The notes beneath the pieces are model-generated. The model had not been told where the DNA came from and searched no databases. It saw only the letters and a program-made list of their open reading frames with translations. Source: Cohaesibacter sp. ES.047 (GTDB lineage: Bacteria; Pseudomonadota; Alphaproteobacteria; Rhizobiales; Cohaesibacteraceae). From it: DNA of 64,000 nt. The translations under genes were made by a program, and so were the position numbers. Of the stretch, positions 5,025 to 25,270 are shown one piece after another (the first letter of the stretch is position 1; each line of letters opens with the position of its first letter). The DNA lies in contig NZ_LT907844.1 in NCBI RefSeq assembly GCF_900215505.1, positions 2,142,501 through 2,206,500 of the forward strand. The letters run 5' to 3'.

Positions 5025-5996
5025 ATGCTGGTATTGTCTGCGAAAGATGTCGGGGAAGCCATGGATTATGTCAGCCTGACCAGTGCGTTGCGACAGGCCT
5101 TTCGCTCGCAGATCGTCACACCGGTCCGCCATCATCATACGATTGATCTGCCTGATCAGGCCAATGCAACCTTGCTCATGATGCCCGCATGGAAAGATGC
5201 AAAAGCGGTTGGAACATCCAGCGGTGGCTATCTCGGCATCAAGATCCTGACGGTCTATCCCGATAACGAGACCCGCGCGCTCAAGCCATCCATTCTGGGA
5301 ACCTACCTTCTGCTTGATGGTGCGAATGGTGAGGTCAAGGCAATACTCGATGGCCCGACCCTGACGGTCTGGCGCACGGCCTGTGCGTCTGCGCTTGCTG
5401 CAGACTTTTTGGCGCGGCCCGATTCTGCCTCGTTGCTGATGGTTGGCACGGGGGCCCTGTCGAGCCATCTCATCCGCGCCCATTGTGCCGTTCGCCCGAT
5501 CAAGAAGGTCACCATCTGGGGCCGCAATCCCGAAAAGGCAATGGCCTTGTCCGAGCGGGTTGCCGATCTGGGGCTTGATATTTGCGTAACCGAGGATCTG
5601 GAAGCTGCTGCCAAAGCGGCTGACGTCATCTCCTGTGCTACGATGTCCCCAACCCCGATCATCAAAGGGGAGTGGCTGACGCCGGGAACCCATCTCGATC
5701 TCGTTGGGGCTTTTCGGCCCGATATGCGCGAATCCGACGATGAAGCGATCCGCCGCTCGCGCGTTTACGTAGACACTCTTGCAGGCGCGACCAAGGAGGG
5801 GGGAGACATCACCCAGCCGATCGCGTCCAACGTGCTCGATCTTGATGACATTCGCGGCGATCTGTTCGGCCTGTGTCAGGACAAGTGCAGCGCGCGCTGG
5901 GGTGACGAGGACATCACCCTGTTCAAGTCCGTGGGAACGGCCCTTGAGGATCTATCCGCTGCGCAATATGTTTACGAGAAGGTCTCTGCCGATTAA
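5025..5996 (+). CDS. Ornithine cyclodeaminase / mu-crystallin family protein
   Basis: NAD(P)-dependent enzyme of the ornithine cyclodeaminase/mu-crystallin family, 323 aa. Family features: GVKILTVYPDN-like strand (IKILTVYPDN), LDGPTLTVWRTACASALAA, a Rossmann motif VGTGALSSHLIRAH at about residues 144-157, and HLDLVGAFRPDMRESD. The FRPDMRE signature also occurs in alanine dehydrogenases and delta1-pyrroline-2-carboxylate reductases, so true ornithine deamination is not certain. AGGAG lies just upstream of the ATG. It is a single gene between the lapA terminator and trpF. Confidence 0.85.
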   Translation: MLVLSAKDVGEAMDYVSLTSALRQAFRSQIVTPVRHHHTIDLPDQANATLLMMPAWKDAKAVGTSSGGYLGIKILTVYPDNETRALKPSILGTYLLLDGANGEVKAILDGPTLTVWRTACASALAADFLARPDSASLLMVGTGALSSHLIRAHCAVRPIKKVTIWGRNPEKAMALSERVADLGLDICVTEDLEAAAKAADVISCATMSPTPIIKGEWLTPGTHLDLVGAFRPDMRESDDEAIRRSRVYVDTLAGATKEGGDITQPIASNVLDLDDIRGDLFGLCQDKCSARWGDEDITLFKSVGTALEDLSAAQYVYEKVSAD

Positions 5997-6062
5997 GCAA
6001 GCTGTTTGAGCGCACCGGCAGGAGCGAGACAAGACAAAGTCATTGCAAGGAGCCTGCGGGCA

Positions 6063-6716
6063 ATGTATGTAAAAATCTGCGGCCTATCGACGCCCGGTAC
6101 GATTGAGGCAGGCTTGCAAGCAGGTGCCAACTGGATTGGATTTGTCTTTTTTCCAAAAAGCCCGAGGCATGTAGGATATGGGAAAGCGAAGGAACTGGTG
6201 GGTCCGGTACGCGGCAAAGCGTCCATAGTCGCCCTCACTGTCAATGCGAGTGACGATGAGCTTGAGGCCATCGACCGGTCGATCAATCCCGATATCTGGC
6301 AGTTGCACGGCTCCGAGAGCCCTGAACGTGTCCGTGAAATCAAACAGCGCTATGGCCGTCCGGTCATGAAGGCGCTGACCATCCGGGATAGGGAAGATCT
6401 TGCTGCCATCTCTCGATATGAAGAGGCTTGCGATATCTTCCTGTTCGATGCCAAACCGCCCACGGATTCCAAAACGGACCTCCCCGGCGGCAATGGCATC
6501 GCCTTTGACTGGCGTTTGATTGAAAATCTCAAGCTCAAGAAACCCTTCGTTCTGGCAGGCGGGCTCGATCCGGACAATGTATCGGAAGCCATTCGCCTGA
6601 CCCGCCCGCAAGGGGTCGACGTCTCAAGCGGCATTGAAAGCGCGCCGGGCATCAAGGACCGGCAGAAGATTGTTGATTTTGTTCAAAGAGCAAAGCAGGC
6701 CGCGCAAGATTTCTAA
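6063..6716 (+). CDS. trpF: Phosphoribosylanthranilate isomerase
   Basis: Converts N-(5-phosphoribosyl)anthranilate to CdRP in tryptophan synthesis. A TIM-barrel protein of 217 aa starting MYVKICGLSTPGTIEAGLQA; KICGL holds the catalytic Cys, and the phosphate-binding end is FVLAGGLDPDNVSEAI then GVDVSSGIE. ATG 6063 is preferred over an earlier in-frame start because AAGGAG lies at 6047-6052 and the family starts at this point. trpB and trpA follow closely. Confidence 0.95.
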   Translation: MYVKICGLSTPGTIEAGLQAGANWIGFVFFPKSPRHVGYGKAKELVGPVRGKASIVALTVNASDDELEAIDRSINPDIWQLHGSESPERVREIKQRYGRPVMKALTIRDREDLAAISRYEEACDIFLFDAKPPTDSKTDLPGGNGIAFDWRLIENLKLKKPFVLAGGLDPDNVSEAIRLTRPQGVDVSSGIESAPGIKDRQKIVDFVQRAKQAAQDF

Positions 6717-6758
6717 AGCCTGCTCGCTTTGAACCAAGCGATGAGCAAGGACTTTTCC

Positions 6759-7988
6759 ATGACCACCTCCACTCTGCCCAACAGCATGAGCCAGGGCCCT
6801 GATGCCCGAGGGTTCTTTGGCATCTATGGCGGCCAGTTTGTCTCCGAGACATTGATGCCGCTCATTCTCGATCTCGAGAAAGCCTACACCGAAGCGATGG
6901 CGGATCCAGCCTTTCACGAGGAACTCGCCGACCTTCACAAAAACTATGTCGGCCGTCAGAGCCCGCTTTATTTTGCCGAGCGCCTGACCGACGAGCTTGG
7001 CGGCGCCAAGATCTATCTCAAGCGCGAGGAACTGAACCACACCGGCAGCCACAAGATCAACAACTGCCTTGGCCAGATCCTGCTCGCCAAGCGTATGGGC
7101 AAGACCCGCATCATCGCCGAGACCGGAGCCGGTCAGCATGGTGTGGCAACGGCGACTGTTTGCGCCCGCTTTGGTTTTCCTTGTGAGGTCTACATGGGCG
7201 CGACCGACGTTGAACGGCAGGCCCCGAACGTTTTCCGCATGGAACTGCTCGGCGGCAAGGTCAATCCGGTCACGGCCGGGGCAGGGACCCTCAAGGACGC
7301 TATGAACGAAGCCTTGCGCGACTGGGTCACCAACGTCGAGGACACCTATTATATCATCGGCACCGCCGCCGGACCGCACCCCTATCCTCAGCTGGTGCGC
7401 GACTTCCAGTCGATCATCGGTCAGGAAGTCAAGGAACAGATGATGGCCGCCGAAGGCCGCTTGCCGGATATGCTGTGCGCCTGTCTGGGTGGCGGCTCCA
7501 ATGCCATCGGTCTTTTCCATCCCTTCCTTGAGGATACCGATGTTCAGATCGTCGGTGTCGAAGCGGCAGGACACGGGCTTGATACTGAGGCTCATTGCGC
7601 CTCGCTCAATGCGGGCAAACCGGGTGTGCTCCATGGCAACCGGACCTACCTGCTTCAGGATGCGGATGGCCAGATTCAGGAAGGCCACTCCATCTCTGCC
7701 GGTCTCGACTATCCCGGCATCGGGCCAGAGCATTCCTTCCTTCGCGATTCTGGCCGTGTCGAGTATGTCTCGGCCACGGACACCGAGGCGCTCGATGCGT
7801 TCCAGCTTTTGTGCCGGACCGAGGGCATCATTCCGGCGCTTGAATCGTCCCATGCCATCGCCGAAGTGGTCAAGCGCGCCCCGACGATGGACAAAGACCA
7901 GATCATCGTGATCAACCTTTCGGGTCGCGGCGACAAGGACGTGAACACCGTCAGCAAATATCTCGGCCAGGGTTCGGTCTCGGAATAA
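6759..7988 (+). CDS. trpB: Tryptophan synthase beta chain
   Basis: PLP enzyme that joins indole and serine, working as an alpha2-beta2 complex with TrpA. The 409-aa product contains [12 protein letters not shown], the PLP-lysine motif HTGSHKINN, the [11 protein letters not shown] segment, and the glycine-rich phosphate site [15 protein letters not shown] at 6747-6751 supports ATG 6759; a TTG at 6729 and an ATG at 6741 are in frame but less well placed. It lies between trpF and trpA. Confidence 0.97.
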
Positions 7989-8006
7989 GCAGCAGGAAGA
8001 AAAGCA

Positions 8007-8837
8007 ATGGAACAGACACGTATCGATACCCGCTTTGCTGCCTGCAAGGCTGAAAACCGTCCCGCGCTCGTTGGCTTTATCACCGCAGGCGACCCGGATC
8101 TGGGCACCTCGCTCGAGATCCTCAAGGCGATGCCCAAATCCGGTGTTGATGTCATCGAACTGGGAATGCCCTTCTCCGATCCCATGGCCGAGGGCGTCCC
8201 CATCCAGCTCGCCACCCAGCGCGCCATGGCCGGCGGTCAGACGATGGAAAAGACGCTCCAGATGGTGCGCGATTTCCGCCAAGGGGACAACGACACCCCG
8301 ATCATCCTGATGGGCTATTACAATCCCATCTATATCTGGGGCTCGGAAAAATTTGTAGCCGATGCCAAGGCGGCCGGTGCTGATGGCCTGATCGTTGTCG
8401 ATCTGCCACCTGAGCATGATGACGAACTCTGCCTGCCTGCCAGAAAAGGCGGGCTCAACTTCATTCGTCTTGCCACCCCGACCACCGATGACAAGCGACT
8501 GCCGAAGGTTCTCCAGAATACGTCCGGCTTTGTCTATTATGTCTCGGTCACCGGCATCACCGGCTCGGGCGCACTCGATTCTGAAAAGGTCGCCCTCGCG
8601 GTGGACCGCATCAAAGGACACACCGATCTGCCCGTGGCTGTGGGCTTTGGCGTCAAGTCACCGGATCAGGCTGAGGCCGTTGGCCGCAACGCGGATGGGG
8701 TCGTGGTTGGCTCCGTGTTGGTCAATGCCATCAAGGACAGCCTTGATGCCAATGGCAAGGCGACGGCAACCACCGTCTCCGCCGTAACGGACATCACGTC
8801 CGGTTTGGCCGAAGGATGCCGCAAGGCGCGCGCCTGA
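8007..8837 (+). CDS. trpA: Tryptophan synthase alpha chain
   Basis: Releases indole from indole-3-glycerol phosphate and channels it to TrpB. TIM barrel of 276 aa with [13 protein letters not shown] near the N-terminus, [15 protein letters not shown] carrying the catalytic Glu, and [14 protein letters not shown] with the catalytic Asp. The phosphate-binding [10 protein letters not shown] follows. It starts 18 bases after trpB, so the two are probably coupled. A hairpin terminator lies about 60 bases after the stop. Confidence 0.97.
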
Positions 8838-20081: not shown

Positions 20082-20730
20082 TCAAACACCTAGAAAATGG
20101 AGCCTTGAATGACACGCCGCCGTTACGAACCGATCATAGCTCTCCGAACTTTGGTCCGTCCCGCATGTCCAACGAGTTGCACAAACAGGTTGTGCTTGTC
20201 TCACTCTCTGGCGTCTGTTCCATCTGGCTGCGGCATGGACGATAATATGTAGCATCAGGCCAACGGAATTCGGGCATAGGTGGATTCCATCGCGCTTGCG
20301 GCCCTTGATCTTTTCCCCCACGTCATATCCGGAAAGCCCGCCGCTTTCCGTGGTTTTGACGCTTTGGCTATCAATGACATCAGCCGTCGGACTGGCTCCT
20401 CGCCCTTCCAGTTCAAGGCACCCCATGGCCAGGAGATGATTGATCCGGGTCCACAAGCCAGCATTGCGCCAAGCATAAAAATATCCGCGAACCGTCGAGA
20501 CCAGAGGAAAGTCCTTGGGCAAAATCCGCCATTGGCAACCGCTGCAACCAACATAAAGGATCGCATCTATCACATCGCCATATTTGTGGTGCGTGGTCGC
20601 CCGCCTGACCGGGCGGCGGCAAGAACAGTGCGATCACTTCCCACTCTCTATCGGTTAAACCTGTTGGATAGCGCAGTTTATCCCGGTTATGGTGAACCCG
20701 AGCGGTATTGTCCCAAGGCATATGATCCTC
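20082..20730 (-). pseudogene. IS5-family transposase remnant, frameshifted
   Basis: From MPWDNTARVHHNRDK and YPTGLTDREWEVIALFLPPP the frame breaks near 20585-20630 and resumes as VIDAILYVGCSGCQWRILPK, then VIDSQSVKTTESGGLSGYD and KIKGRKRD. This is the DUF4096/DDE layout of IS5-type transposases. After KRD the usual catalytic C-terminus is lost. Broken and partial, so inactive. Confidence 0.78.
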
Positions 20731-21060
20731 CATCTTCTCATCTAAAACGGTTGCATCAGAACCTATTGATATCCCACAACTACTTTTAAATCCGGCTCTA
20801 AGTTCAACCACCTTCAGACCAACGGCATCCGCGAACGGTTCCACAAAACCATCTCAGGCCAGCCCTGATGGGGCCTGTCGCTCCATGTGCCTGCCTGCTC
20901 GACAAGGACGCAGGAAACACTCTCCCCATACCTGCCGCATGCAGAGGCATATGATACCTCTCGACAATTTTATCCGGATTGGAATGCAATAATTCAAATT
21001 TAACTTGAACACGCTAAGAATTGGATATTGGCGTCTTTAATTTTTAGCATTCCGGCAAAC

Positions 21061-24000
21061 ATGAAAAAATCATCGATATTTATCACAGTGGCGGGTGCTG
21101 CCGCCCTTTTCCCTTCTTCGGTGTGGGCTGCGAGCGATCTGAGGGGATTGTCTGCAAATCTTGACCTGACGTGGATCATGGCCGCCTCTGCATTGGTGAT
21201 GTTCATGCAGGCAGGATTCCTGCTGCTCGAAGCGGGCATGGTCCGCTCCAAGAACTCGATCAACGTGGCGCAGAAGAACCTGCTTGATTTTGTTTTTTCG
21301 ATTGCAGCGTTCGCAATTGCCGGTTTCATGATAGCCTTCGGACCGACCGGGTCTTTGATGGTGGGGTTTGATTGGGACTACTTCGGCCTGAGCAATATCA
21401 CGTCCTACGAGGCTGGGTTCTTCGTTTTTCAGGTTATGTTCTGCGGTACGGCTGCGACAATCGTCTCCGGTGCCGTTGCCGAACGGATGCGCCTCTCTGC
21501 CTATATCATCGGTTCTATTTTTCTGTCCTCACTCATTTATCCCGTGTTCGCCCACTGGGCGTGGGGAGACGCGCTGCGCCCAAACGAGGGGGCTTTCCTC
21601 GCCAACATGGGCTTCATCGATTTTGCCGGATCAACGGTGGTGCACGCGACCGGCGGTTGGGTCGCGCTTGCCGCCTGTATTGCGCTGGGGCCGCGTATGG
21701 GGCGCTTCGATGAGGCTGGCAATCCGGTGCGCATGGCGGGTCACAGTCCGGTTCTGGCCACCACTGGCGTTCTACTGCTGTTTATCGGTTGGCTCGGGTT
21801 CAACGGCGGATCGACCCTGAAGGCGGGCGAGGATGTCGCTTTCATCATTCTCAATACGATTCTTGCCGGTGGCTTCGGAACCGTGGCCGGACATATCATC
21901 GGCTATTACCATGATGGATACTATCTACCCGAAAAGGCAATGGCCGGTATGCTCGGCGGTCTTGTTGCCGTCACCGCAGGCTGCGCGGTGCTCTCGCCCG
22001 GCGGGGCCATCATGATCGGTATTCTGGGTGGCTGCATCTCGATCATCGCCAATCATATCCTTGAGACCAAATTCAAGATTGATGACGCGGTGGGCGCGAT
22101 TGGCGCACACGCCTTTGCCGGTGTCGCCGGAACCATCGGTCTGGCACTGCTTGCACCGGCTGACCAATTCGAATTTGGCCGCCTTCATCAGCTTTATGTG
22201 CAGGGCATCGGCTCGGGGCTGAACTTCTGTCTGTCATTTGGGCTTGGCTTTCTCTTCTTCTCCATTCTTCGCCGCGTCTCGCGATTTCGTGCAACGCTGG
22301 ACGAGGAGAAACTCGGTCTCAACATTTCCGAACACGCCACCCGCATCGGTGTAGGCCACGTGGAGAGCGCGCTCGAGAAGCTCCTGTCGGGGAAACGCAA
22401 TTTTGTGCAGCGCTTGCCGACGGTGCCCGGTGACGAGGCGGAAAACCTGACAAAGCTTTTCAATGATCTGATGGTCAATCTGGAAAAAGAGCACAAGCAG
22501 CTCAGCGAACTGGAACTGCTTCAGGCAAAATCCGAAGAAGCCGAGCGCATTGCAGCCCTGTCCAACGCCACGTTTGAAGGCATCGCCATGCATCGTGACG
22601 ATCACGTCGTCGATTGCAATCAGCAACTGGCCGACTTGCTCGGCTACACGCTTGATGAGGTGATTGGTGCGTCCATTGACAAGGTGATGGTCGATGAAAC
22701 CGAACCGATCATTCAGCAGGCGATTGCCGAGAACTGGAGCCACACCTATGAGGCCAAACTCAAGGCCAAGAGCGGCGAAGCGATCCCTGTGGCTGTTCGT
22801 GGCCGCAGTATCGACTTCAAGGGCGAGCCCGTCAGGATTGCCTGCTTTGTCGATCTGCGCGAGCGCAAGCAGGCAGAGCAGAACATCCGTCTGATGGCGC
22901 AGCATGATCCCTTGACCGGGCTGGCCAACCGGTCCCTGTTCAATGAACAGCTCGAAACGGCCGTCAACAAGGCAAAGGACAACAACCGTACTGCGCTGAT
23001 CCTGATCGATCTGGACCGCTTCAAGAATGTCAACGATGTGCATGGCCATCAGGCCGGGGATATTGTCATCAAGGAGACTGCGAAGCGACTGAAGGCGATT
23101 GCTGGAGAAAACGGCACGGTGGCGCGCCTCGGGGGGGACGAATTTGCCATCATCCAGAACGGTCTGCATTTTGCCAATCAGGCAGCGGATACCGGCCACC
23201 GGATTGTTGCAGAGATGTCCATTCCGATACCGATCGATGACAATGCCTCGGCCCTGATCGGTGCAAGTGTCGGGATTGCCCTGTGCCCGGAACACGGCAC
23301 GACTGCAGAAATGCTTTTCTCTCGTGCCGATATCGCGCTTTATCACTCCAAGAATACGGGCCGCAACATGTCCAACATGTTCCGAAACGGCCTCAATGCG
23401 CTGATGGAGAAGCGCCGGGCTCTTCAGGCGGACTTGGAAAACGCGCTCGAGCGTGGCGAGTTTGAGCTTTACTATCAGCCTCGTGCCTGCGCCGGGAATC
23501 TGGAAATCAACGCCTACGAGGCTTTGTTACGCTGGAAACATCCCGAACGCGGCCTTGTCAGCCCTGCCGAATTCATCCCGGTGGCAGAGGCCAGTGGCAT
23601 GATCATCGATATCGATGAGTGGGTTTTTCGGCAGGCCTGCATCGCTTCGACATCAATTCTCAAGGGTGCCGATATCAGCGTCAACATCAGCCCCCTGCAG
23701 TTTCAGCAGAAGGATCTGGTCAACAAGTTCGATACCATTCTCTGCGAGACCGGTGCCGATCCTGCCTGTCTGGAGCTGGAACTGACCGAAGGCATGCTTA
23801 TCGAGGATGACGCGCGGGGCCTGTCGGTCATGAAGATGCTCAAGAAGCTTGGTCTGGCCCTCGCCCTTGATGATTTTGGTACAGGCTATTCATCCTTGTC
23901 CTATCTGTCGAAATATCCCTTCGATACCATCAAGATTGATCGCGGTTTTGTCGCCAATCTTGGACATGAAACCAATGCTGTTGCCATCATGAATGCGATC

Positions 24001-24345
24001 ATCGGCCTTGGCACGAGCCTTGGCATGAAGATCGTTGCGGAAGGGGTGGAGACCGCCGAAGAAGCTGTCTTCCTCAGACGCAACGGCTGTGATCAATTAC
24101 AGGGCTATCTGATCGGTCGTCCCAAGCCTGTCAGCGAGATCATTCACCAGGTTGCCGATGAAGAAGCCGAGGCCATCCGCGCCATTGACATCTTGATGGA
24201 CACCGAAGGGCAGGTTGCGGGCTTGCGATCGATCCTGGCTTGCTCAGAAGAAGAAGAAGACAGCGGCGGGCATGGCGACACTTTCGCAGAGCCGGACGCC
24301 AGCTATTCGCAGCATGATCTGGATGCCGACCAGAAAGCCTCTTAG
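21061..24345 (+). CDS. Ammonium transporter-PAS-GGDEF-EAL fusion
   Basis: 1094 aa. A signal-peptide-like start (MKKSSIFITVAGAAALFPSS) leads into a full Amt/Rh domain, about residues 20-400, with both pore histidines: His195 in STVVHATGG and His350 in GAIGAHAFAG. Then a helical linker, a PAS domain (about 488-606), a GGDEF domain (about 610-775) with GGDEF intact at 691-695, and an EAL domain with YEALLRWKHP at 819 onward. The cytoplasmic output could make or break c-di-GMP in response to ammonium flux. No glnK is adjacent. ATG 21061 is chosen; an upstream TTG at 21028 is in frame. The acidic C-terminal tail is unassigned. Confidence 0.9.
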   Translation: MKKSSIFITVAGAAALFPSSVWAASDLRGLSANLDLTWIMAASALVMFMQAGFLLLEAGMVRSKNSINVAQKNLLDFVFSIAAFAIAGFMIAFGPTGSLMVGFDWDYFGLSNITSYEAGFFVFQVMFCGTAATIVSGAVAERMRLSAYIIGSIFLSSLIYPVFAHWAWGDALRPNEGAFLANMGFIDFAGSTVVHATGGWVALAACIALGPRMGRFDEAGNPVRMAGHSPVLATTGVLLLFIGWLGFNGGSTLKAGEDVAFIILNTILAGGFGTVAGHIIGYYHDGYYLPEKAMAGMLGGLVAVTAGCAVLSPGGAIMIGILGGCISIIANHILETKFKIDDAVGAIGAHAFAGVAGTIGLALLAPADQFEFGRLHQLYVQGIGSGLNFCLSFGLGFLFFSILRRVSRFRATLDEEKLGLNISEHATRIGVGHVESALEKLLSGKRNFVQRLPTVPGDEAENLTKLFNDLMVNLEKEHKQLSELELLQAKSEEAERIAALSNATFEGIAMHRDDHVVDCNQQLADLLGYTLDEVIGASIDKVMVDETEPIIQQAIAENWSHTYEAKLKAKSGEAIPVAVRGRSIDFKGEPVRIACFVDLRERKQAEQNIRLMAQHDPLTGLANRSLFNEQLETAVNKAKDNNRTALILIDLDRFKNVNDVHGHQAGDIVIKETAKRLKAIAGENGTVARLGGDEFAIIQNGLHFANQAADTGHRIVAEMSIPIPIDDNASALIGASVGIALCPEHGTTAEMLFSRADIALYHSKNTGRNMSNMFRNGLNALMEKRRALQADLENALERGEFELYYQPRACAGNLEINAYEALLRWKHPERGLVSPAEFIPVAEASGMIIDIDEWVFRQACIASTSILKGADISVNISPLQFQQKDLVNKFDTILCETGADPACLELELTEGMLIEDDARGLSVMKMLKKLGLALALDDFGTGYSSLSYLSKYPFDTIKIDRGFVANLGHETNAVAIMNAIIGLGTSLGMKIVAEGVETAEEAVFLRRNGCDQLQGYLIGRPKPVSEIIHQVADEEAEAIRAIDILMDTEGQVAGLRSILACSEEEEDSGGHGDTFAEPDASYSQHDLDADQKAS

Positions 24346-24370
24346 GGCAAGCTCGTCAAGACGGGCTCGG

Positions 24371-25270
24371 CTAGAGTTTGAGATAGTCGGCAAGACTGAG
24401 ATTGGTGAGGACACTGATTGCTGAGAAACTCGCCTCCAATTGCACCTCAAGGGCTTTTGCCTCGACAGCGACTGCGGCGATATCAACGGAGGTCATGTCC
24501 GCAACTACCGTTTCCAGCTCGGCAACATAGGCGCTTTCGCTTTTGATGAAATTCTCGATCCGAACCGTCGCGTTACCGGTTGTCGTGACTAGGGCAAGAA
24601 CCTCGTCTTGTGCCTCGATGAAAAGGTCAGACAGATCTGTCATATCCGCTGCAGACAGGGAGCTTGACCCGGCGATGAAGGACAGGGCGCGCATGGATTT
24701 CTCGATGCCGCTGTTGTCTGCGGTCACGCCGTAACTGACGCTCTGGTCAGCGGTTAGCCGGCACTTTTGGACGTAACTATCACCAAGGTAATAGTCTGTG
24801 TTCGGGGTGGTGAGGTCGACAGCTGTGTAGCCTGACAAGTCGACAGGCTCCGATTGCGTCTCGCCTCCGCCAAACAGATAGCGCCCGGCATATTGTGTGT
24901 TCATAATGCTCGACAGCTCTTCAAGGTACGAGGACGCCTGAGACTTAAGCTCGGACAGATACTCCTCGGAGGAGACCGAGGTGACGGCCACACGCATCTT
25001 GGTGAGCAAGTCACTGACCTCCACAAGAGAGGCGGAGACCATTTCCGTGCGGCTTGCGATCTTTGAGGCTGTCTCGATTTGGGTATTGGAGCGGGCGATC
25101 GTGTTGCCAAGGTCCACGACCGTGCCGGCCTTAAATTCAAGCCCGCCGTAACTGGTCGTCTCCAACCCGCTTGCCTCTTGCTGTTGCACTTTGGCAAGGC
25201 GGCCTTGCGTATCCATCGCAAGCGAGAGAATCGAAGACATTTGGCTAAATGTGGCAACACGCATCGTCAT
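24371..25270 (-). CDS. flgL: Flagellar hook-filament junction protein FlgL
   Basis: Joins hook to filament with FlgK. 299 aa; the N-terminus MTMRVATFSQMSSILSLAMD and C-terminal coiled region ending SAISVLTNLSLADYLKL are flagellin-like, and YLFGGGETQSEPV matches the FlgL segment YLFGG. It begins 8 bases after flgK on the same strand, so the two are co-transcribed. Low similarity in the middle is normal for this family. Confidence 0.85.
   Translation of the reverse strand: MTMRVATFSQMSSILSLAMDTQGRLAKVQQQEASGLETTSYGGLEFKAGTVVDLGNTIARSNTQIETASKIASRTEMVSASLVEVSDLLTKMRVAVTSVSSEEYLSELKSQASSYLEELSSIMNTQYAGRYLFGGGETQSEPVDLSGYTAVDLTTPNTDYYLGDSYVQKCRLTADQSVSYGVTADNSGIEKSMRALSFIAGSSSLSAADMTDLSDLFIEAQDEVLALVTTTGNATVRIENFIKSESAYVAELETVVADMTSVDIAAVAVEAKALEVQLEASFSAISVLTNLSLADYLKL

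Follow-up and report, generated by a model that had tools for sequence, protein, structure and literature searches.

A 1094-residue Amt-PAS-GGDEF-EAL protein of Cohaesibacter as a candidate ammonium receptor with c-di-GMP output

A stretch of 64,000 nucleotides from Cohaesibacter sp. ES.047 (contig NZ_LT907844.1, positions 2,142,501 to 2,206,500), hereafter the window, was analyzed. Its gene at 21061..24345 on the forward strand encodes an ammonium transporter (Amt) domain joined to PAS, GGDEF and EAL domains. The question raised by this locus is whether such an Amt domain carries ammonium, senses it or only holds the enzymes in the membrane. From sequence comparison, the protein was read as an ammonium receptor that sets cyclic diguanylate (c-di-GMP), with a probability of roughly 0.68. 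Ammonium control of c-di-GMP had been proposed in a sequence-only reading of the window. This was the favoured reading, since the Amt domain grouped with fused Amt domains including that of Ks-Amt5, the ammonium sensor kinase of Kuenenia, whose response to ammonium was measured (PMC5764959). The pore histidines as evidence, the rarity of the architecture and the significance of the flagellar context, which had been offered together with that proposal, were not supported.

The gene was a single uninterrupted open reading frame of 1094 residues with ATG at 21061 and no internal stop. A TTG located 33 bases upstream was a second open start candidate, and the ATG was matched by the start residue of a relative at locus L138 (L numbers denote the loci compared). 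Pfam placed the Amt domain at 21172..22341 (Ammonium_transp, residues 38-427, E = 7e-99), the PAS domain at 22579..22863 (PAS_9, residues 507-601, E = 8e-9), the GGDEF domain at 22897..23367 (residues 613-769, E = 3e-43) and the EAL domain at 23428..24123 (residues 790-1021, E = 5e-72). A HAMP-like linker lay at 22339..22494 (residues about 427-478), assigned from a conserved pattern and from Pfam HAMP matches in some relatives. With 350.7 bits, the NCBIfam amt subfamily model scored above its threshold of 343.3 bits. NCBIfam gave 33 matches, and in the 25 listed the c-di-GMP equivalog models were all under cut-off; the top score, that of the c-di-GMP phosphodiesterase DibA, was far under it (468 against 980 bits). 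A domain search for the architecture, as suggested earlier, recovered it in relatives. Alignment A1 was built from all 36 fusions of the order sample described below together with L006, L164 and L008, and Pfam reported Amt, GGDEF and EAL in 39/39 of these fusions and PAS_9 in 38/39.

A tree of 105 Amt domains was computed by quick maximum likelihood with no bootstrap. It omitted near-duplicates, refetched loci, L119, L003 and L189 (unlabelled by motifs) and most unfused rows, and the 28 unfused rows included, Af-Amt1 among them, were picked by hand. The 77 fused rows and L007 formed one branch, with a Shimodaira-Hasegawa-like approximate likelihood ratio (SH-aLRT) support of 98, and the other 27 of the 28 unfused rows fell outside it. 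This branch contained the 1094-residue protein, Ks-Amt5 (6eu6), the Amt-cyclase 8qj3, and kinase and chemotaxis fusions. The group of the window comprised 30 rows, all labelled PAS-GGDEF-EAL (a label given from the GGDEF and EAL motifs alone), with support of 100. It joined 13 fusions of Amt to a methyl-accepting chemotaxis protein (MCP) and the long-branched L008 with support of 99. L008 (6878-9724, forward strand) was itself an Amt-GGDEF-EAL frame with no PAS or HAMP match. Those PAS-GGDEF-EAL rows that came from the phylum sample fell, together with L164, in a different branch (support 99) that also included kinases and cyclases. A single group for all 44 PAS-GGDEF-EAL rows was rejected by the approximately unbiased test (p-AU 0.0004), a value weakened by the choice of the group after the tree was seen and by several long branches. 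Therefore, the Amt-PAS-GGDEF-EAL architecture probably arose more than once, or its outputs were swapped.

Of the solved chains, 6eu6 and 8qj3/8qpf came closest to the Amt part, followed by Af-Amt1 and the AmtBs. Ks-Amt5 binds two ammonium ions via Q24, E31, N47, D50, T51, T109 and T112 (PMC5764959). Alignment with 6eu6 placed these ligands at Q50, E57, N73, D76, F77, T133 and S136 of the 1094-residue protein. Five of the seven were identical, and six were kept if the replacement of T112 by S136 is counted. The candidate ammonium-site residues Q50, E57, N73, D76, T133 and S136 were identical in 39/39 GGDEF-EAL fusions, and position 77 was F in 32 and L in 7 of them. The Q, E, N and D of the site were also kept in 18/18 chemotaxis fusions and 12/12 kinase fusions. 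For all residue counts, frames below 380 residues, repeated starts and the duplicates L001 and L084-L097 were dropped, and classes were assigned by motif. The pore residues aligned as W168/S251, F127/F247 and H195/H350. The sequence-only reading was right that both pore histidines are kept, H195 and H350 being aligned with H171 and H326 of Ks-Amt5.

Three candidate marks of sensing were considered and rejected. The site residues of Ks-Amt5 were common among unfused Amts near glnK. The pore histidines, taken as a sign of sensing or transport, were kept by fused and unfused Amts alike, in filled columns of all fused and 78/78 unfused sequences except the degenerate L003, so that their value as evidence was lost. 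For a long loop 5, the aligned stretch measured 20 residues in 38/39 GGDEF-EAL fusions and 67/78 unfused Amts alike.

Residue 421 was a better mark. Among Amts with the full site, it was the best separator of 70 fused from 59 unfused sequences, being Asn in 70/70 of the former and Asp in 98% of the latter. The codon at 22321..22323 encodes N421, where the C-terminal GLD motif has Asp (D381 of Af-Amt1). Asn was found in 39/39 GGDEF-EAL, 18/18 MCP, 12/12 histidine kinase and 1/1 GGDEF fusions, and in 3 of 5 other long frames, the remaining 2 having a gap. Unfused Amts had Asp in 76/78, with one gap and one Asn. The lone unfused row with Asn was L007, in which a chemotaxis domain was found in the next overlapping frame; this locus (5848-8120) could be a split or frameshifted Amt-MCP gene or an assembly error. 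L014, truncated by a contig end, also had Asn. The long frames of the phylum sample showed Asn in 15/15, by a motif search restricted to D or N at this position. A further test covered 114 genomes in the class of G897 (probably Gammaproteobacteria), a genome that had supplied earlier rows. Among the matches listed, Asn was found in 4/4 new frames above 600 residues, classed by length alone, and Asp in 36/36 short frames, which were picked by eye. At the same motif, 6eu6 and 8qj3 had GLN and Af-Amt1 (2b2f) had GLD. Asn-421 could serve as a one-residue mark for distinguishing fused receptors and transporters in genome sequences, a purpose for which the binding-site residues are unsuitable.

Residue 421 is also a named candidate in the conversion of a transporter into a receptor. 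D381 of Af-Amt1 reportedly interacts with the N-terminal end of transmembrane helix 2, perhaps stabilizing the open form (PMC4852598), and helix 2 of Ks-Amt5 bears the site residues N47 and D50 (PMC5764959). We infer from these positions that coupling might run via residue 421 and helix 2. A wider proposal, which we hold tentatively and consider somewhat less probable than not, is that fused Amts constitute a single family of dedicated receptors. The change from Asp to Asn would release the C-terminal region from its coupling to transport and GlnK, making it a lever for any output. Kinases, cyclases, cyclase-phosphodiesterases and chemotaxis domains would then have been attached to the module on repeated occasions, and some species would read ammonium into both c-di-GMP and chemotaxis.

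Several observations weighed against the reading as an ammonium receptor with c-di-GMP output. T51 of the Ks-Amt5 site was replaced by F77, as in 8qj3. All four of Q, E, N and D were present in 59/78 unfused Amts, a share that is no census since most of the 78 were chosen for likeness to the 1094-residue protein, and a glnK-like match lay within 1.5 kb at 49 of these 59. Asn-421 may be a single ancestral change, because all fused Amts in the tree fell into the same clade. The degenerate L003 from the same genome, which is joined to an ATPase-like domain, had Ser at 421. Pfam HAMP was not reported for the 1094-residue protein itself. In addition, the Amt domain may transport ammonium, because Y30 and F34, two of the three pore plugs of Ks-Amt5, are replaced by L56 and M60; the third, F27, is kept as F53.

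The last point bears on a transceptor, in which the Amt domain carries ammonium inward and flux rather than binding drives the enzymes. All pore motifs tested were kept, and L56 and M60 at the plug places would suit such a protein. However, the Amt domain grouped with Ks-Amt5, a protein whose kinase is modulated by ammonium and which does not carry this ion efficiently (PMC5764959). The Asp proposed to stabilize open transporters (D381 of Af-Amt1, PMC4852598) is Asn here, and the genome encodes a separate AmtB next to a GlnK-like gene. Together these observations made a transceptor unlikely, at about one chance in five. In line with a receptor, a glnK-like match within 1.5 kb was found at 62/78 unfused loci and at 0/72 of the fused or long-frame loci that have the full site, in a count that did not include the window and in which some loci ended before 1.5 kb at contig ends. 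By eye, no GlnK-like frame was found near the fusion gene in the window.

The linker and the PAS domain were then considered as parts of a receptor. Pfam HAMP was reported in 15/39 fusions at E values up to 0.5, the best being 4.5e-5. If the Amt domain were a mere membrane anchor, the PAS domain would sense something else, such as redox state or a ligand, and control the enzymes. The PAS_9 match in nearly all aligned fusions is in line with this. However, the ammonium-site residues and nearly all pore residues were identical in the 39 fusions, which would be needless for an anchor. L003 shows, in the same genome, an Amt domain stripped of the tested pore residues, and L008 joins Amt to GGDEF and EAL with no PAS match. 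An anchor with an independent PAS sensor was therefore considered improbable, clearly more so than the transceptor.

The GGDEF and EAL domains were both intact by sequence. Their motifs, which the sequence-only reading had also noted, lay at residues 691-695 and 820-822. The cyclase motif was GGDEF in 38 and GGDEY in 1 of the 39 aligned fusions. The EAL motif varied in a few of them (EVL, ETL, EEL), and the positions that we take to be catalytic (Glu, Asn, Asp-Asp, Lys, Gln) were invariant in all 39. The RxxD inhibitory site was absent from the 1094-residue protein, which has G682 and G685 instead; some relatives, L124 for example, have it. This site is not known to be needed for cyclase activity and so does not define a bifunctional enzyme. 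In many GGDEF-EAL proteins, a single one of the two domains is used. This background and the absent RxxD site could fit a protein with one or two silent enzyme domains, which would be a receptor of c-di-GMP or GTP or act by protein contact. However, the active-site residues of both domains were kept in the 39 fusions, and silent enzymes were regarded as very improbable, the least probable of the alternatives considered.

For an ammonium receptor setting c-di-GMP, the following course is proposed. External ammonium would enter the vestibule of the Amt domain, which would be trimeric as in its family, and would be held at an intramembrane site of helices 1, 2 and 4, as in Ks-Amt5. Movement might then run via the C-terminal region with Asn-421 to the HAMP-like helices and on to the PAS domain, and the PAS movement would shift the balance of GGDEF and EAL. 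Net breakdown of c-di-GMP by EAL seems slightly the likelier outcome, with GGDEF binding GTP or making c-di-GMP in certain conditions. Uptake would be left to the separate AmtB beside the GlnK-like gene, which is present in the genome and whose role here is presumed. If this is true, the protein would be a natural receptor that ties c-di-GMP directly to external ammonium. A different route from nitrogen to c-di-GMP, via the PII protein GlnZ of Azospirillum, was reported (PMC7646526).

The 1094-residue protein was compared with known systems. It has in common with Ks-Amt5 the Amt fold, the pore motifs, the C-terminal Asn and a fused cytoplasmic transducer. As for the fusion gene, judged by eye, no glnK was reported in the vicinity of the Ks-Amt5 gene (PMC5764959). 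The output of Ks-Amt5 is a kinase, whereas here it is PAS-GGDEF-EAL. T51, Y30 and F34 of Ks-Amt5 correspond to F, L and M, and the 1094-residue protein has a putative HAMP-like linker, unlike Ks-Amt5, which is reportedly without one (PMC5764959). The Amt and GGDEF chains 8qj3/8qj4/8qpf belong to the same Amt clade, with F at the T51 place, a GLN motif and a GGDEF output. We take these chains to be Sd-Amt1 of Shewanella. 8qj3 was read as Amt joined to GGDEF because L066 (622 residues, Amt and one GGDEF) matched it over residues 13-617, GGDEF part included. Unlike the 1094-residue protein, the matched chain of 8qj3 (644 residues) has no EAL part, and its Amt domain lay in a different branch of the clade. 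The same GGDEF-EAL output pair is found in DibA, DosP and 4rnh, which is named Motility regulator and is presumably MorA. These proteins matched the PAS-GGDEF-EAL or GGDEF-EAL part only, the Amt part being excluded.

The genome of the window (one contig, 5.1 Mb) gave three Amt gene matches, namely the fusion, the AmtB at L002 and L003. The AmtB (449 residues) shares the Amt fold and pore residues with the fusion, and the gene directly upstream of it was read as GlnK. It differs from the fusion in having Ala and Leu at the places of the site Gln and Asp, the Asp of GLD and no output domain. L003 (1453-3624, forward strand) encodes 723 residues with a degenerate Amt domain that is without both histidines, both gate Phe residues and the Trp. 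Its HATPase match was just under the Pfam cut-off and no HisKA match was found. From its sequence, L003 has the appearance of a pseudo-transporter fused to a pseudo-kinase. Frames of 728-759 residues that were 25-29% identical to the Amt domain of the fusion, which could be orthologues of L003, were found in 17/18 genomes of the genus.

A second Amt frame, of 817-842 residues and 43-48% identical to the Amt domain of the fusion, was present in 11/36 fusion genomes of the order sample and was not found in the genome of the window. A chemotaxis signalling motif was identified in 6/6 of the second frames fetched (L151, L152, L154, L156, L158 and L159). Amt-MCP fusions were found at L151 (4052-6331, reverse strand) and at L152-L159, L161-L163, L009-L013 and L015. 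They occurred in Cohaesibacter and further genomes from that class, as well as in Oceanospirillum, Nitrincola and an uncultured member of the Alteromonadaceae, and some had a Pfam HAMP match. These fusions, which belong to the fused-Amt clade, are candidate ammonium chemoreceptors.

The distribution of the fusion was examined in nested samples. In the family sample, 14/20 genomes including that of the window had a frame of 1081-1113 residues, and all 14 belonged to the genus, which has 18 genomes there. The order sample contains these 18 congeners; frames of at least 1065 residues were found in 36/397 of its genomes, and in 22/379 outside the genus, and in G090 the frame was interrupted by a contig end. 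A class sample of 385 added one further frame of such size, L164, with 1039 residues. In a phylum sample of 398, there were 13 frames of 1023-1298 residues besides the genome of the window and one of the same order. A GGDEF-type motif was found in 13/13 and a DDFG motif in 12/13 of these, the remaining one, L176, having a Pfam EAL match, and four that were scanned with Pfam had Amt, GGDEF, EAL and at least one PAS. These phylum-sample fusions are similar proteins that probably arose separately.

The nearest named relatives were Cohaesibacter celericrescens (L004) and C. marisflavi (L005). No plasmid record covering 80% of the 1094-residue protein was found among the best 5000; three Vibrio records matched 64% of it at 36% identity. 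The architecture had been called little described. A literature search limited to open-licence papers listed none on Amt-PAS-GGDEF-EAL, and in this respect the claim stood. It did not stand as a claim of rarity, given 36/397 order and 13/398 phylum genomes with the fusion or a close likeness. Fusions of Amt with other domains were noticed earlier (PMC5764959). Most likely, on present comparisons, the protein belongs to a known kind, the Amt receptor fusions, as a new variation with a PAS-GGDEF-EAL output.

The flagellar context was also examined. A cluster with FlgK, FlgN, FlgE, FlgD, FliS and FliD, identified by Pfam, lies downstream, and the frame at 24371-25270, which had no Pfam match, was taken for FlgL by eye. 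The fusion gene and the cluster are not co-transcribed, because they are convergent. Neighbourhoods were compared with 39 other loci, with flanks of about 7 kb or less per side. Flagellar neighbours were common to the window and L138 only (1/39), and all shared neighbours were flagellar; L138 is the nearest relative, with 84% identity. Nine congeners (L139-L147) have another neighbourhood in common, and homologues of two proteins from it lie at 160 kb and 3,789 kb in the genome of the window, where the fusion lies at 2,164 kb. Flagellar synteny was thus rejected as a general feature. The cluster that had suggested control of motility is real, but its sharing is limited to one of the 39 loci. 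An effect of c-di-GMP on motility could well occur, and the gene order lends little support to it.

Candidate signals around the gene were also counted. No sigma-54-like site was found upstream in the window, and 1/37 upstream stretches of 300 bases had one, with 0.15 expected from shuffles. In 20500-24500, there were 3 sigma-70-like sites against 2.2 expected, and 10 terminator-like sites against 3.6 expected, the latter mostly within coding sequence. A transposase fragment of the IS4/5 family of insertion sequences is located upstream of the fusion gene at 20082-20573 on the reverse strand of the window.

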